Below, one piece after another: positions 30,586 through 55,720 of a stretch of DNA of 64,000 nt. The stretch is from an uncultured Prevotellaceae bacterium (lineage in GTDB: Bacteria > Bacteroidota > Bacteroidia > Bacteroidales > Muribaculaceae). The DNA lies in the NCBI GenBank assembly GCA_900318535.1, contig ONKU01000015.1:25953-89952 (forward strand), given 5' to 3'. Both the position numbers and the translations under genes were made by a program. Positions within the stretch are counted from its first letter, which is position 1, and every line of letters starts with the position of its first letter. Below the pieces are notes generated by a model that saw nothing but the letters and a program-made list of their open reading frames with translations, made no database searches and was not told where the DNA came from.

Positions 30586-30659
30586 GCCTCTTTAGCTCAG
30601 TTGGCCAGAGCACGTGATTTGTAATCTCGGGGTCGTTGGTTCGAATCCGACAAGAGGCT
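30586..30659 (+). tRNA. tRNA-Thr (anticodon TGT)
   Basis: 74 bases with a full cloverleaf. Acceptor GCCTCTT/AAGAGGC is perfect, the anticodon loop TTTGTAA carries TGT, and the T loop is TTCGAAT. First of four tRNAs before tuf. CCA is not encoded. Confidence 0.95.
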
Positions 30660-30677
30660 CAAAGAACATAACACAAT

Positions 30678-30760
30678 GGGTAGATTCCAGAGTGGCCAAA
30701 TGGGGCAGACTGTAAATCTGCTGCGTCATCGCTTCGGTGGTTCGAATCCATCTCTACCCA
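30678..30760 (+). tRNA. tRNA-Tyr (anticodon GTA)
   Basis: 83 bases, class II with a long variable arm (about 30722-30736). Acceptor GGGTAGA/TCTACCC is perfect, and the anticodon loop CTGTAAA carries GTA. Discriminator A. Confidence 0.95.
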
Positions 30761-30768
30761 CATGTTTT

Positions 30769-30841
30769 GCGGAAGTAGCTCAGTTGATAGAGCATCAGCC
30801 TTCCAAGCTGAGGGCCGCGGGTTTGAGCCCCGTCTTCCGCT
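30769..30841 (+). tRNA. tRNA-Gly (anticodon TCC)
   Basis: 73 bases. Acceptor GCGGAAG/CTTCCGC is perfect, the anticodon loop CTTCCAA carries TCC, and the T loop is TTTGAGC. Confidence 0.95.
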
Positions 30842-30861
30842 CAAGAAACAAACCGAATATT

Positions 30862-30933
<72 letters not shown>

Positions 30934-31055
30934 CAACGAGTAGAACGCTTCGCCTCTCACTGATTGCGGGTTAATGTTATCATAAGAGGTGAAGTGATTT
31001 ACGCAATAAGGTAGAGTAATATAATTCATTCAATTTACAATAACAACTAACAGTT

Positions 31056-32177
31056 ATGGCAAAAGAGCATTTTGAAAGAACAAAACCGCATGTTAACATC
31101 GGTACTATTGGTCACGTTGACCACGGTAAAACTACCCTGACCGCAGCTATCACCACCGTGCTTGCTAAGGACGGTGACATCGCCGGCGATAGCGTTCGTT
31201 CGTTCGATTCGATCGACAACGCCCCCGAGGAGAAGGAGCGCGGTATCACTATCAACACCGCTCACGTTGAGTATGAGACCAAGAATCGTCACTATGCTCA
31301 CGTTGACTGCCCGGGCCACGCTGACTATGTAAAGAACATGGTTACTCAGACCCGCGAGCACATCCTGCTCGCCCGTCAGGTGAACGTTCCCCGTCTGGTT
31401 ATCTTCTTGAACAAGTGTGACTCTCCCGACGTTGACGACGAGATGATTGAGCTCGTTGAGATGGACGTTCGTGACCTGTTGAACGAGTATGATTTCGACG
31501 GTGAAAACACCCCCATCATCAAGGGTTCGGCACTGGGTGCCCTGCAGGGTGAGCCCAAGTGGGAAGACACCGTTCGCGAGTTGATGAACGCTGTTGACGA
31601 GTGGATCCCCCTGCCCCCGCGTGATCGTGACAAGCCCTTCCTGATGCCCATCGAGGACGTCTTCTCAATCACTGGCCGTGGCACCGTTGCTACCGGTCGT
31701 ATCGAGACTGGTGTCGTTAAGGTCGGCGACGAGGTTCAGATCATGGGTCTGGGTGCCGAGATGAAGTCGGTAGTTACCGGCGTTGAGATGTTCCGCAAGA
31801 TCCTCGATGAGGGTGAAGCTGGTGACAACGTTGGTCTGCTGCTCCGCGGTATTGACTATAAGACCATCAAGCGTGGTATGGTAATCTGCCACCCGGGTGT
31901 TATCAAGCCCCACGATCACTTCAAGGCTTCGATCTACGTCCTGAAGAAGGAAGAGGGTGGTCGTCACACTCCGTTCCACAACCACTATCGTCCCCAGTTC
32001 TACATCCGTACCCTGGATGTAACCGGTGAGATCATGCTCCCCGCTGGTGTCGAGATGGTAATGCCTGGTGACAACGTCGAGATCGACGTCAAGCTGATCA
32101 CTCCGGTTGCTTGCAGCGAAGGTCTGCGTTTCGCTATCCGCGAGGGTGGCCGCACCGTAGGTTCCATCGAGGACTAA
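31056..32177 (+). CDS. tuf: elongation factor Tu with two internal deletions
   Basis: 373 residues; Bacteroides EF-Tu has about 394. P-loop [17 protein letters not shown] and GSALGAL are present, and domains 2 and 3 look normal. After VKNMVT (residue 97) the sequence jumps to [11 protein letters not shown], so the near-universal 20 residues from GAAQMDGA to TDGPMP are missing (end of helix B, core strand and loop). Near the C-terminus GRTVGSIED lacks about five residues of the usual AGQITEI-type strand. Both gaps keep the frame; a small insertion near residue 40 and one at the loop after NKCD account for the rest of the length. A folded, working G domain is doubtful. Position between tRNA-Thr and tRNA-Trp-secE-nusG is canonical. 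It may be an assembly error. Confidence 0.88.
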
Positions 32178-32273: not shown

Positions 32274-32346
32274 ACGGGAATAGCTCAGTTGGTAGAGCGA
32301 CGGTCTCCAAAACCGTAGGTCGTGAGTTCGAGCCTTACTTCCCGTG
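32274..32346 (+). tRNA. tRNA-Trp (anticodon CCA)
   Basis: 73 bases. Acceptor ACGGGAA/TTCCCGT is perfect, the anticodon loop TCTCCAAAA carries CCA, and discriminator is G. Canonical position between tuf and secE. Confidence 0.95.
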
Positions 32347-32370
32347 CAACAAGAAAGACGAAATAAACAA

Positions 32371-32577
32371 ATGAAGAAGTTTTTTAATAACAGGCTTACG
32401 GATATCAAGGAATCTTATAACGAACTCGTTCATAAGGTTTCTTGGCCTACTAAGAGTGAACTGGCCAATAGCACTATCGTCGTGATGGTTGCTTCCATCA
32501 TCGCGGCGCTGGTCATTTGGGTAATCGACCTGTGCATCAACGAAGTGATGCACCTCGTTTACGGCGTGGCTGCCTGA
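32371..32577 (+). CDS. secE: SecE, preprotein translocase subunit
   Basis: 68 residues from the ATG at 32371; an earlier GTG at 32344 lies inside tRNA-Trp and is not the start. Amphipathic N-terminal helix with the family motif ELVHKVSWPTKSEL, then one transmembrane helix (TIVVMVASIIAALVIWVID). It clamps SecY in the translocon. Confidence 0.93.
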   Translation: MKKFFNNRLTDIKESYNELVHKVSWPTKSELANSTIVVMVASIIAALVIWVIDLCINEVMHLVYGVAA

Positions 32578-32601
32578 TCATAGGGCGCTCCGTTATCTAC
32601 T

Positions 32602-32617
32602 GCGCACTCGTGTGCGC
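32602..32617 (+). other. perfect hairpin in the secE-nusG gap
   Basis: GCGCAC, loop TCGT, GTGCGC: a perfect 6-base GC stem with a tetraloop and no T run. Possibly an RNA processing or stability element. Confidence 0.4.
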
Positions 32618-32673
32618 GGCGTGTTTCATCCAGTACTATTATTTAACAAACTGTCACTGCACTAGTCACAACT

Positions 32674-33228
32674 ATGTCTCAAGGTAAGCATCAGTGGTAT
32701 ATCTTGCGTACCATCTCGGGCAAGGAGATGAAGGTGAAAGAGATGATTGAGGGTTACAGGAAGAATAATCCTGCGTACGCCGAGAATATCTCTCAGATTC
32801 TCGTGCCGACCGAGAAGGTCTACACAACGCGTGCCGGGAAGAAGGTTCTCAAGGAGAAAGTCATGTTCTCGGGTTATGTGTTTGTAAAGCTGGAGCTCAT
32901 CCCCGACATCGAAGTGACGCTGCAGGACACCACCAACGTGGTGAACTTCGTGCGCTCGCGTGAAGGCGAACGCCGCCCCGAGCCCGTGCCCGAGTCTCAG
33001 ATTCTGACGATGCTGGGTCACGCCGAGGCGCGCGAGATGGAGGCCGCCGATGCCGTCAACGACTATGTCGTGGGCGAGTCGGTAAAGGTCAACTTCGGCC
33101 CCTTCAGCGGCTTCATCGGCGAGATCAAGGAGATCAACGCCGAGAAGCGCGAGCTCACGGTGATGGTGAAGGTATTTGGACGCGAGACGCCGCTCAAGTT
33201 GGATCATTCGCAAGTCGAGCGTGAGTAA
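32674..33228 (+). CDS. nusG: transcription antitermination/termination factor NusG
   Basis: 184 residues. NGN domain starting QWYILRTISGKEMKVKEMI with the FSGYVFVKLEL strand, then a linker and a KOW domain (ESVKVNFGPFSGFIGEIKEI). It contacts the RNA polymerase clamp and modulates pausing, and couples to ribosomal S10. Standard length and position before rplK. Confidence 0.95.
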   Translation: MSQGKHQWYILRTISGKEMKVKEMIEGYRKNNPAYAENISQILVPTEKVYTTRAGKKVLKEKVMFSGYVFVKLELIPDIEVTLQDTTNVVNFVRSREGERRPEPVPESQILTMLGHAEAREMEAADAVNDYVVGESVKVNFGPFSGFIGEIKEINAEKRELTVMVKVFGRETPLKLDHSQVERE

Positions 33229-33305: not shown

Positions 33306-33749
33306 ATGGCTAAAGAAATTGCTGGACAGATCAAATTGCAGATTAAGGGTGGGGCTGCAAACCCCTCGCCTCCCGTAGGTCCCGCGCTGGGTTCTAAGGG
33401 TATCAACATCATGGATTTTTGCAAGCAATTCAACGCCCGCACCCAGGCTAAGGCCGGCAAGGTGTTGCCCGTAGTGATCTCTTACTACGCCGACAAGAGT
33501 TTTGACTTCATCGTCAAGACTTCTCCCGTGCCCGTTCAGCTGCTGGAGGCTGCCAAGATCAAGGGTGGTTCTGGTGAACCTAACCGCGTGAAGGTGGCTT
33601 CGGTGACCTGGGACCAGGTGAAGGAAATTGCCGAGGACAAAATGCCTGATTTGAACTGTTTTACATTAGCCTCGGCTATGCGTATGGTGGCCGGCACAGC
33701 AAGAAGTATGGGTATCACTGTAAAGGGTCAATTCCCTGAGAACGTTTAA
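33306..33749 (+). CDS. rplK: large-subunit ribosomal protein uL11
   Basis: 147 residues. [20 protein letters not shown] and the [20 protein letters not shown] region are typical; the C-terminal rRNA-binding domain ends [12 protein letters not shown]. Part of the GTPase-associated centre. First ribosomal gene of the rplKAJL-rpoBC string. Confidence 0.97.
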
Positions 33750-33763
33750 AAACTTTATTGATT

Positions 33764-34459
33764 ATGAGTAAATTAACGAAAAATCAGAAGTTATACAACG
33801 CGAAGGTTGAAGCGGGGAAGGCTTACACCCTTGAGGAAGCTGCAGCATTGGTTAAGGAAATCACTTTCACCAAGTTTGACGCTTCCACCGATATCGACGT
33901 ACGTCTTGGTGTGGATCCCCGTAAGGCCAACCAGATGGTTCGTGGCGTTGTATCGCTGCCTCATGGCACTGGCAAGCAGGTTCGCGTTCTGGTTCTCTGT
34001 GGACCGGATGCTGAGGCTGCTGCTAAGGAAGCTGGAGCAGAATATGTCGGTCTTGACGAGTACATCGACAAGATTAAAGGCGGTTGGACCGACATTGACG
34101 TGATTATCACTCAGCCCCAAATCATGGGAAAGGTGGGTCCTCTGGGTCGCATTCTGGGTCCTCGTGGCCTGATGCCCAACCCCAAGAGCGGCACCGTTAC
34201 TCCTGACGTTGCAAAGGCTGTGAAAGAAGTGAAACAAGGTAAGATCGACTTCAAGGTCGATAAGGGTGGTATCGTACACACCTCCATCGGTAAGGTATCG
34301 TTCAGCCCCGAGCAGATTCGCGACAACGCTGCCGCGTTCATCAACACGCTCATCAAGCTGAAACCCGCCGCTGCTAAGGGTACGTACATCAAGAGCATTT
34401 ATCTTTCGAGCACCATGAGCAAGGGCATCAAGGTTGATCCCAAGTCGATTGAGGCTTAA
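33764..34459 (+). CDS. rplA: large-subunit ribosomal protein uL1
   Basis: 231 residues from the ATG at 33764 ([12 protein letters not shown]); a TTG two codons earlier is not needed. Family signature [20 protein letters not shown] at about 125-145. L1 stalk protein and a known repressor of its own operon in other bacteria. 14 bases after rplK. Confidence 0.97.
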
Positions 34460-34483
34460 ACATTTTAAAACGATTGAAACGAA

Positions 34484-35008
34484 ATGAGAAAGGAAGATAA
34501 AACCTTATTGATCGACAAGATCAAAGAGACTCTTGACCAGTACAGTGTCGTTTATCTGGCTAACACCACTTCGCTGAACGCTGAGAAGACCGTGGACTTG
34601 CGCCGCGCTGCTTTCAAGGCTGGCATCAAGATGATGGTGGTCAAGAACACCCTGTTGAAGAAGGCCATGGACGCATGTGACGTCGATTATAGTGGTCTTT
34701 ATGAGGCCCTGGCTGGCCCTACCACGCTGTTGCTGAGCGACACGGGTAACGCGCCTGCTAAACTCATCAAGGAATTCCGCGGTAAGAAGGAGACCATCCC
34801 CGCATTCAAGGCTGCTTATGTCGAGGAGACCGTCTATGTAGGCGAGCAGAATCTCGACACCCTCGTGGCCATCAAGAGCAAGAACGAGCTCATCGCCGAT
34901 GTTGTGGCATTGCTGCAGTCGCCGGCCAAGAACGTTATCAGTGCTCTGCAGTCGGGTGGCAATAAGCTCCACGGAGTCCTGGAAACCTTATCCAAAAAAG
35001 AAAATTAA
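34484..35008 (+). CDS. rplJ: large-subunit ribosomal protein uL10
   Basis: 174 residues: KIKETLDQYSVVYLANTTSL, the RRAAFKAGIKMMVVKNTLLK core, and a C-terminal helix that binds the L7/L12 dimers. Base of the stalk. 24-base gap after rplA; no separate promoter seen. Confidence 0.96.
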   Translation: MRKEDKTLLIDKIKETLDQYSVVYLANTTSLNAEKTVDLRRAAFKAGIKMMVVKNTLLKKAMDACDVDYSGLYEALAGPTTLLLSDTGNAPAKLIKEFRGKKETIPAFKAAYVEETVYVGEQNLDTLVAIKSKNELIADVVALLQSPAKNVISALQSGGNKLHGVLETLSKKEN

Positions 35009-35049
35009 TCAAAAACAAAAACAACAATCATTTTTAAATCCATACTATT

Positions 35050-35427
35050 ATGGCAGATTTGAAAGCTTTTGCAGAACAGTTAGTGAACCTTACCGTAAAG
35101 GAAGTTAACGAACTCGCTCAGATTTTGAAAGACGAATATGGCATCGAGCCCGCCGCTGCAGCTGTTGCTGTTGCTGCTGGTCCCGCCGCTGGTGCAGCCG
35201 CCGAGGCCGAGGAGAAGACTTCGTTCGACGTTGTCCTCAAGGCCGCTGGTGCACAGAAGCTCCAGGTGATCAAGAAGGTGAAAGAGCTCCTGAGCCTTGG
35301 CTTGAAGGATGCTAAGGACATGGTTGACGGTGCTCCCTCGACCATCAAGGAAGGTGCTACCAAGGACGAGGCCGACGCTCTGAAGGCTGAGCTCGAGGGT
35401 CTTGGCGCCGAGATCGAGCTGAAATAA
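35050..35427 (+). CDS. rplL: large-subunit ribosomal protein bL12 (L7/L12)
   Basis: 125 residues. N-terminal dimerisation domain, Ala/Gly-rich hinge (about 37-52), and the conserved C-terminal domain with [20 protein letters not shown] and [20 protein letters not shown]. Normal length. Followed by a terminator/attenuator and a highly structured spacer before rpoB. Confidence 0.97.
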
Positions 35428-35451
35428 TAGCACCCCGGTAACGGGTGTTTG

Positions 35452-35491
35452 GGTTAAGAATCACCACCGATAGTGGGTTCTTAACCTTTTT
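35452..35491 (+). terminator. terminator/attenuator between rplL and rpoB
   Basis: GGTTAAGAA (35452-35460) pairs with TTCTTAACC (35478-35486), with an inner CCAC/GTGG stem, then five T. Placed to uncouple ribosomal-protein from polymerase synthesis. Confidence 0.75.
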
Positions 35492-35520
35492 GTGTCAAAA
35501 TTGACCTGCACAATAAGATT

Positions 35521-35621
35521 CATCGGAGTTGTCCCGGCCATGGGGCTCTCCAAGGCCGGGACAACGAGACCGATGGACCTGACCCTCAGGCTTTTGCGTG
35601 ATTGCCGCCAGAGTGCGGCAA
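35521..35621 (+). ncRNA. structured rplL-rpoB intergenic RNA
   Basis: Three consecutive hairpins. The long one has CATCGG/CCGATG outside and a perfect 12-base stem GTTGTCCCGGCC/GGCCGGGACAAC inside. Then CCTGA-CCC-TCAGG (35578-35590) and TTGCCGC-CAGAGT-GCGGCAA (35602-35621). None ends in a T run. It resembles an RNase III processing site or a leader that senses a protein. No family recognised. Confidence 0.6.
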
Positions 35622-35696
35622 CGTGGCGAGAACCGACGATTATTCTGCTATTCCACCATCTCTCATTAGTTGAGTTCACATAATTTTTCTTTGTCA

Positions 35697-39500
<3,804 letters not shown>

Positions 39501-42500: not shown

Positions 42501-43869
42501 TCCCAACACAAACATGGTACTTACCCATGCTCCCATCGAGTACGGTTCTAGGCTGTTTTTCAAGCCTGGTGACATGGTTTCCGAAGGTGACAAGATTTGT
42601 GAATGGGACGCTTTCAATGCTGTTATCGTAAGTGAGGTTAGTGGTACATTGCGTTTCAAGAACCTGATCGAGGGCGTGACCTATCGCGAGGAGTATGATG
42701 AGATCTCGGGCAATGCCGAAATCTTCATCATCGAGACCAAGGACCATAATCGTATCCCTGAGGCTTTGATTATTGCATCGAGTGATGTTTCCAAAGATAG
42801 GGCATTAGTAGAAAATGTTGATAGATTGGCTGATGGTACAATCCTGAAGTCCTACTCGCTGCCCGTGCGCGCCCACCTGATGAAGAAGGATGGTGAGGAA
42901 ATCACCGCCGGTGAGGTATTCGTGAAGATTCCGCGCTCGTTCTCGGGTGGTGCTGGTGATATCACCGGTGGTCTGCCTCGTGTAACCGAGCTGTTCGAGG
43001 CCCGCAACCCGTCTAACCCCGCTATCGTCAGCGAGATCGATGGTGAGGTGTCCTTCGGTCGCATCAAGCGCGGTAACCGCGAGATTACGGTCAAGAACCG
43101 CATTGGCGAGGAGAAGAAGTACCTTGTGCCCCTGTCGAAGCAGATTCTGGTGCAGGAGAACGACTTCGTGCGTGCCGGAACGCCGCTTTCGGACGGCGCC
43201 GTCACTCCCGCCGACATCCTTCGCATCAAGGGTCCCACGGCCGTTCAGGACTACATCGTTAACGAGGTTCAGGACGTTTACCGCACCCAGGGTGTGAAGA
43301 TCAACGACAAGCACTTCGAGGTAATCGTGCGCCAGATGATGCGCAAGGTGCGCATTATCGATCCGGGCGACACCCGATTCCTCGAGGAGCAGACCGTTGA
43401 CAAGCGTGACTTCATGGAAGAGAACGACCGCATCTGGGGCAAGAAGATTGTCACCAACAGCGGCGACAGTGAGGAGGTCCAGAATGGACAGATCATCACT
43501 GCACGCAAGCTGCGCGACATCAACTCGTCGCTGAAGCGCCGTGACATGAAACTCGTCGTCGTTCGTGACGCCGTGCCCGCTACCAGCGAGCAGATTCTGC
43601 TGGGTATCACCCGTGCAGCGTTGCAGACCAGCAGCTTCATGTCGGCAGCATCGTTCCAGGAGACCACTAAGGTCCTCAACGAGGCCGCTATCAACGGACG
43701 CGTGGACAATCTGGAGGGTATGAAGGAGAACGTGATCTGCGGTCACCTCATCCCCGCCGGAACCGGCCTGCGCGACTACCAAACGCTCATCGTAGGCGAC
43801 AAGAACGAGATGGCGCTTGCCGAGCAGGCACGCCAGGAGCGTGAACTCGCCGGGATCGGAGATGATTGA
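39517..43869 (+). CDS. rpoC: RNA polymerase beta' subunit
   Basis: 1450 residues, slightly longer than in Bacteroides. Zinc site [11 protein letters not shown] with CDHCGVE, catalytic [12 protein letters not shown], bridge-helix/trigger-loop region ([20 protein letters not shown]), second zinc site [16 protein letters not shown]. Normal and intact. An intrinsic terminator follows about 100 bases downstream. Confidence 0.98.
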
Positions 43870-44019: not shown

Positions 44020-44027
44020 TACTTTTG
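44020..44027 (+). promoter_or_regulatory. -7 element of the btuB riboswitch transcript
   Basis: TACTTTTG, exact. The nearest TTG (44002-44004) is only 15 bases upstream and inside the rpoC terminator, so the -33 element is poor. Confidence 0.45.
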
Positions 44028-44036
44028 CAGCGAGAT

Positions 44037-44222
44037 TTGGTGCCTGGGGCTTTAGACCTCGGGTGAAAAGGGAACCGGGTGGGAATCCCGGACAGACGGT
44101 GCTGCTGTGTGCCCCCTGTAGAATGATCCCTCACTTGTCCACTGAGCATGGCTTCCTTGACAAGAGGCAGCTTGGGAAGGACAAGTGCTGAACAGGGTAG
44201 GGGCGAGTCAGAAGACCTGCCA
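44037..44222 (+). promoter_or_regulatory. cobalamin riboswitch 1 (upstream of btuB)
   Basis: Conserved cobalamin-aptamer parts in order: AAAAGGGAA, the GGG/CCC stem (CCGGGTGGGAATCCCGG), ACAG...GCTGCTGTG, and the B12 box AGTCAGAAGACCTGCC (44206-44221). Only 27 bases separate it from the btuB ATG, and no T-run terminator lies between, so control is probably by blocking translation initiation when cobalamin is plentiful. Confidence 0.93.
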
Positions 44223-44248
44223 AATCGTTTATATAGAAACCCGGTATA

Positions 44249-55350: not shown

Positions 55351-55370
55351 CACCTAAGAATAACGTGTTG

Positions 55371-55560
55371 AGGTTCCTTGTGCTGCGACGAGTGGTACAA
55401 GGATCAAAAGGGAACCAGGTGAGACTCCTGGACAGTACCCGCTGCTGTAACTCCCTCGACAAGACATCGCTCGGCATGCATGCCACTGGTTGCAACATCG
55501 CGCTGCATCATCACCGGGAAGGCGCCGAAAGCGATGGGGGAGAAGTCAGAAGACCTGCCT
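55371..55560 (+). promoter_or_regulatory. cobalamin riboswitch 2
   Basis: GGTTCC start, AAAAGGGAACCAGGTGAGAC, ACAG...GCTGCTGTAACTCCC, long variable arms, and the B12 box AGTCAGAAGACCTGCC (55544-55559), identical to that of riboswitch 1. About 160 bases lie between it and the next start codon, with a CCACA/TGTGG hairpin near 55685-55701; the switching mechanism may differ from riboswitch 1. Confidence 0.93.
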
Positions 55561-55720
55561 ACACACGGCCTGTATTGTGGTTCACGTGGCATTTGAACCT
55601 TGGCGAAGCAGATGATGCGGATCATTCTCTGTCCGTTTTCATGACGTCACAACGGCCCTCAGTGGCCTCTCATGTCGCCTGATCCACAAAAAGGATGTGG
55701 AACTATTAATGTGATGTGAG

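Follow-up and report, generated by a model that had tools for sequence, protein, structure and literature searches.

The tuf locus and its surroundings

The window analyzed here, i.e., the whole stretch of 64,000 nucleotides, comes from contig ONKU01000015.1 of an uncultured Prevotellaceae bacterium, and the source assembly (GCA_900318535.1, hereafter G000) is a draft of 43 contigs with 2.92 Mb and a completeness of 92.3%; its relatives place it in the order Bacteroidales. The window contains tuf, which encodes EF-Tu, and the gene order 3' of tuf is tRNA-Trp, secE, nusG, rplK, rplA, rplJ, rplL, rpoB, and rpoC. The coordinates of these features are summarized in Table 1, together with the tuf lesions found inside contigs of the genus. 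We take secE and nusG to be the genes so named on the basis of family knowledge, gene order, and motifs, and rplK, rplA, rplJ, rplL, rpoB, and rpoC are likewise presumed identities, based on similarity and order. When the genes from rplK to rpoB were compared with those of three relatives (secE and nusG were left out of this comparison), no gap of more than 4 residues was detected, and a general decay of the window was therefore ruled out.

Table 1. Features of the tuf region in the window, and tuf lesions located inside contigs in five genomes of the genus
Feature	Position in the window	Strand	Description
tRNA-Thr(TGT), tRNA-Tyr, tRNA-Gly, tRNA-Thr(GGT)	30586..30934	+	Upstream of tuf; all four present
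tuf (EF-Tu) ORF	31056..32177	+	ATG at 31056, stop at 32177; 373 aa; profile matches
Junction of the 60-bp gap	31346..31347	+	Residues 98–117 of the 399-aa relative absent
Junction of the 18-bp gap	32164..32165	+	C-terminal GQITGI (6 residues) absent
tRNA-Trp	32274..32347	+	Downstream of tuf
secE and nusG	32371..33228	+	ORFs; standard neighbors of tuf
rplK, rplA, rplJ, rplL, rpoB	33306..39500	+	ORFs compared with three relatives
tuf lesion of G000			60 and 18 bp absent
tuf lesion of G019 (L014 / L082)			108 bp absent around switch I
tuf lesion of G095 (L069)			117 bp absent
tuf lesion of G108 (L070)			3' end and stop lost
tuf lesion of G105 (L073)			3' end lost

Some further features were observed in the window. 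At 42765–42843, rpoC contains an AT-rich stretch (35% GC) that encodes 27 residues in place of about 10. The loop is thus 17 residues longer, at a place that is length-variable across the genus, and among the 25 genus loci with a readable loop, the long AT-rich form was found in G000 only. The corresponding segment is apparently longer in G116 too, and in eight genomes part of the loop is missing from the alignment. There are also two cobalamin riboswitches, at 44021–44238 and 55354–55576, and a “tRNA-Stop” reported by ARAGORN at 44022 is a false call within the first of them.

Two in-frame gaps in the recorded EF-Tu

The translation of the tuf ORF scored 623.9 bits with the equivalog model TIGR00485, above the cut-off of 522.4 bits, and the EF-Tu of an intact relative scored 707.9 bits. 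It matched the Pfam domains PF00009, PF03144, and PF03143, of which the PF00009 match was split into two stretches. The G-domain motifs of EF-Tu were found in the translation. The preliminary description of this DNA had stated that the frame is open from ATG to stop, and this was confirmed; the span that it assigned to the gene, 31341..32166, lies within the ORF but covers only part of it.

By comparison with intact relatives of the genus, the first gap is exactly 60 bp long and begins directly after VKNMVT, in agreement with the preliminary description, and it removes 20 residues of the G domain. It is located after the switch II region and before the helix starting with QTREHILL. A complete G domain would contain GAAQMDGA...ATDGxMP at this place. 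As had been noted, the segment from GAAQMDGA to TDGPMP is missing, but the closest relatives read GAAQMDGAIVVVAATDGVMP across the gap, and the ending ...TDGPMP is the commoner one. When solved EF-Tu chains were aligned, the match ended near chain residue 96 and restarted near 113. From the established structure of EF-Tu, we take the lost segment to contain a G-domain core strand. When 23 full-length EF-Tu sequences of named records were aligned, at least 90% conservation was found in 14 of the 20 missing columns. The second gap had been estimated at about 15 bases; it is in frame and C-terminal as described, but its length is 18 bp, and the end of domain 3, GQ(I/V)T..I, is lacking because GQITGI is absent.

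The reading frame is kept across both gaps. No N occurs in the window, including the two junctions, and each junction can be slid by only 0–2 nt, i.e., there is at most 2 nt of microhomology. Recombination between repeats was considered as a cause of the deletions and rejected, given this short slide and the fact that neither gap is flanked by the repeats within tuf. The presence of both gaps in the recorded tuf sequence is far beyond chance.

We also compared 371 codons of the gene with those of 12 intact relatives, and found 25–59 synonymous and 3–11 non-synonymous codon differences; pairs of intact relatives gave similar synonymous/non-synonymous ratios. Judged from these codon differences, the rest of the gapped gene appears to be under purifying selection like the genes of its relatives, and it resembles a functional tuf. 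The best-matching relative varies along the gene, as might be expected of a mosaic of several species, and at such a level of conservation this is not decisive. The structure was also modeled, as the preliminary description had suggested. The AlphaFold2 model of the 373-aa protein had a mean pLDDT of 79.6, which dropped to 51 at residues 81–90 and to 45 at residues 91–100; this drop near the first gap is weak evidence, because it comes from a single model without an intact control.

Search for a second tuf

According to one of the three options in the preliminary description, another tuf copy carries the function. Searches of the 2.92-Mb assembly with the PF00009 profile, by protein, and by DNA all failed to reveal a second tuf. 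The PF00009 search detected one EF-Tu, the rest being other translational GTPases, and the DNA search with the tuf of an intact relative returned the locus itself plus chance-level matches only. For the missing 60 bp, a DNA search of G000 likewise gave no trace elsewhere beyond chance-level matches.

Among the 45 genomes of the genus with a full-length tuf, 44 had one full-length EF-Tu copy. The exception, G115, has a second full-length EF-Tu frame, which is a diverged paralogue. In two other genomes (G036 and G005), second partial EF-Tu pieces were present, running off contig ends. The genome assembled as one contig (G062, 3.34 Mb) has a single tuf of full length.

These data bear on the possibility that the deletions are real, that the work is done by another, intact tuf in the part of the genome missing from the assembly, and that the copy in G000 is a recent, dispensable allele. 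At the given completeness there is room for a hidden copy, the second EF-Tu sequences in G115, G036, and G005 provide a precedent, and in-frame gaps would be tolerated in such an allele. However, one full-length copy is the rule in the genus, including the one-contig genome; the copy in G000 lies in the standard operon context and has no relaxed selection; and neither the missing 60 bp nor, as described below, the extension of the G115 paralogue was traced in G000. We therefore consider this possibility to be unlikely.

The paralogue of G115 (G115:C9, L133:7099–8934, + strand) is an observation in its own right. It encodes a diverged EF-Tu of 612 aa with a C-terminal extension of 213 aa that matches PDC-S48. 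A protein with related C-terminal repeats is encoded 3' of it, and further on there is an AAA ATPase that matches the IetA defence models of PADLOC. A match to the extension was found in 6 of the 101 genus genomes, and none in G000. This diverged EF-Tu might be a candidate for a defence-linked EF-Tu decoy or guard.

State of tuf across the genus and the family

We surveyed tuf in 101 genomes of the genus including G000, and considered tuf to be absent when there was no EF-Tu match better than 1e-30. The gene was full-length in 45 genomes, partial in 26, and absent from 30. As a control, a 174-aa segment of rpoC, 11 kb from tuf and shorter than tuf, was present in 87 of the 101 genomes at 1e-15 (in G028, the match is apparently cut short). 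The tuf locus is thus broken or altered in many related assemblies, and the control locus much less so. At the level of the family, 149 genomes were sampled, and 108 of them yielded an EF-Tu match at 1e-40; among those with a completeness of at least 90% and a contamination of at most 5%, the number was 87 of 110.

The 26 partial genes comprise 21 that are truncated by a contig end and five with lesions that lie inside a contig and differ from genome to genome (Table 1). Moreover, in G019, G095, and G108, one or two tRNAs of the cluster adjoining tuf are also absent, and all four upstream tRNAs are present in six other clusters scanned and in the window. Because the lesions differ between species and extend into tRNA genes, it is hard to read them as an adaptive trimming of EF-Tu. 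In two genomes of another genus of the same family (G176 and G194), runs of 100 and 344 N occur inside tuf, which is suggestive only as a sign of assembly trouble.

Two side observations were made in this survey. In G011 (L023 / L081), the first tuf codons are duplicated just upstream of a full-length tuf, resulting in a preceding 22-aa frame. Among the matches listed, the tuf of a record titled Staphylococcus sp. MAG (L141) was 85% identical to the Bacteroidales query, and this is probably a mislabeled record.

The preliminary description had also advised looking for the same deletion in related genomes. The 60-bp junction was searched as a degenerate pattern, which found the window's own site once; it was detected in none of the 392 other genomes of the order, i.e., only in G000 among 393. 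There was no match in the GTDB r220 contigs either, a set from which the source record itself is possibly absent.

The uniqueness of the junction is relevant to another of the three options, a natural EF-Tu variant. Under this reading, the deletions are real, and the sole EF-Tu of the organism would function although the stretch linking the switch II region to helix C is missing. The open frame with two in-frame gaps, the constraint on the rest of the gene, the absence of another tuf from the assembly, and a TIGR00485 score above the cut-off are in accordance with such a variant. Against this, the lost segment is strongly conserved and presumably contains a G-domain core strand, the model has low pLDDT values next to it (again in a model without an intact control), the close relatives are full length, and the junction is unique. 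Furthermore, excerpts of a previous article (PMC5574714) present EF-Tu as an essential protein that is finely tuned. A sole EF-Tu that lacks a core strand region and part of a C-terminal strand and still drives translation, with the tuf genes of several species each trimmed in frame in a different way, is in our judgment very improbable, and the variant reading as a whole is equally hard to uphold. If it were true, it would overturn what counts as indispensable in a translational GTPase.

Contig ends, shared sequence, and lesion lengths

We next considered where contigs end inside tuf. The set comprised 36 contig ends (26 from the genus and 10 from elsewhere in the family), of which 35 were checked and one (G156:C12) was assumed. 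Sixteen of the 36 fell in one 60-residue window within residues 65–126 (permutation P = 0.002). There were 13 ends at a distance of up to 20 residues from the 60-bp gap, against 5.4 expected (P = 0.0015), and four inside the gap itself, against 1.8 expected (P = 0.10). The surroundings of the 60-bp gap are thus a place where other contigs end.

The sequence around the gap is also shared between species. The 99 nt to the left of the 60-bp junction had an exact match in 4 of the 43 loci examined, and exact sharing between species extended to 83 nt on the right of the junction and to 232 nt elsewhere in tuf. Flanks shared exactly between species are the setting in which related genomes overlap in k-mer space and chimeric contigs form; chimeric contigs due to shared k-mers of related species are described in excerpts of a review (PMC7299287).

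The lengths of all four gaps located strictly inside the coding sequence (60, 18, 108, and 117 bp) are multiples of three, for which the chance is 1/81. Codon phasing is also seen in the contig ends inside tuf, since 19 of the 35 ends coincide with a codon boundary (P = 0.0085). This is likely because most differences between species are found at third codon positions, which results in phased branch points of the graph. This phasing lowers the surprise of four in-frame gaps but does not remove it. We also ranked the conservation of the lost stretches among windows of equal length across 29 genus tuf genes. Windows at least as conserved as the lost stretch accounted for 28% in the case of the 60-bp gap and 91% in the case of the 18-bp gap (for which the window was 2 nt off), so the idea that the most conserved part of tuf was lost was rejected. 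The corresponding values were 76% for G019 and 57% for G108, and only G095 stood out, with 4.5%.

Because the junctions contain no N and have so little microhomology, no specific assembler step can be identified from them. With no such step identified, and since the junction k-mer needs some source in the reads, it could be supposed that the sequenced DNA contained a real, damaged minority allele or a PCR chimera that was picked over the majority sequence. However, two lesions in one gene and the differing lesions of sister genomes are better explained by an assembly problem of the whole locus, and we regard this supposition as extremely unlikely.

Interpretation

Based on these results, the tuf of G000 is very probably an ordinary gene that was recorded in damaged form as a result of metagenome assembly. 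In this interpretation, tuf would be an essential, single-copy gene, and the organism's own EF-Tu would be full length. Species of the genus have almost the same tuf sequence, so that reads from those occurring together would agree exactly over long distances, and the assembly graph would break or tangle within the gene. The flanks may then have been joined in such a way that the 60 bp were skipped, as were the 18 bp near the 3' end. This mechanism presupposes reads that contain the missing bases, related species in the sample, and an assembly step that was responsible.

The evidence that we count in favor of a misassembly comprises the draft state of the assembly, the failure to find another tuf in it, the survey of tuf against the rpoC control, the hotspot of breaks, the exact sharing of sequence between species, the differing lesions in sister genomes, the N runs in G176 and G194, the full-length tuf of the one-contig genome, the unique junction, and the signature of purifying selection. 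Counted against it are the junctions without N and with little microhomology, the four in-frame gaps, the lost stretches that are not the most conserved ones, the genes from rplK to rpoB without such gaps, and the complete tRNA cluster of G000. The three options of the preliminary description are partly supported: a collapse of the assembly is supported, indirectly, by tuf being a break point in the genus, by the different lesions, by the clustered contig ends, and by the junction being seen in G000 only; a second tuf was not found in the assembly; and a natural variant is unlikely. In the literature searched, including excerpts of PMC9179125, PMC7299287, and PMC5574714, we found no description of tuf loss in metagenome assemblies.

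The biological importance of this locus is probably nil, as the gene would be an ordinary one, and its value is one of caution. Although tuf is a common marker and expression reference, it is full length in fewer than half of the genus genomes surveyed, and five of these genomes have internal lesions. Genes with lesions of this kind can still score above an equivalog cut-off and mimic exotic protein variants.

Comparison with known systems

Like other bacterial EF-Tu proteins, the 373-aa protein has the three domains represented by PF00009, PF03144, and PF03143 together with the TIGR00485 match, and it is 99% identical to the EF-Tu of its genus relatives over the aligned residues; it differs from them in lacking reference residues 98–117 and the six C-terminal residues. 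The locus has the standard order tRNA-tuf-tRNA-secE-nusG of bacterial EF-Tu loci. Compared with collapsed or chimeric metagenome contigs, the joins in tuf are distinguished by the absence of N and the minimal microhomology. As in such contigs, however, numerous genomes of the genus have their breaks and lesions concentrated in a single, highly conserved gene with the tRNA cluster beside it.
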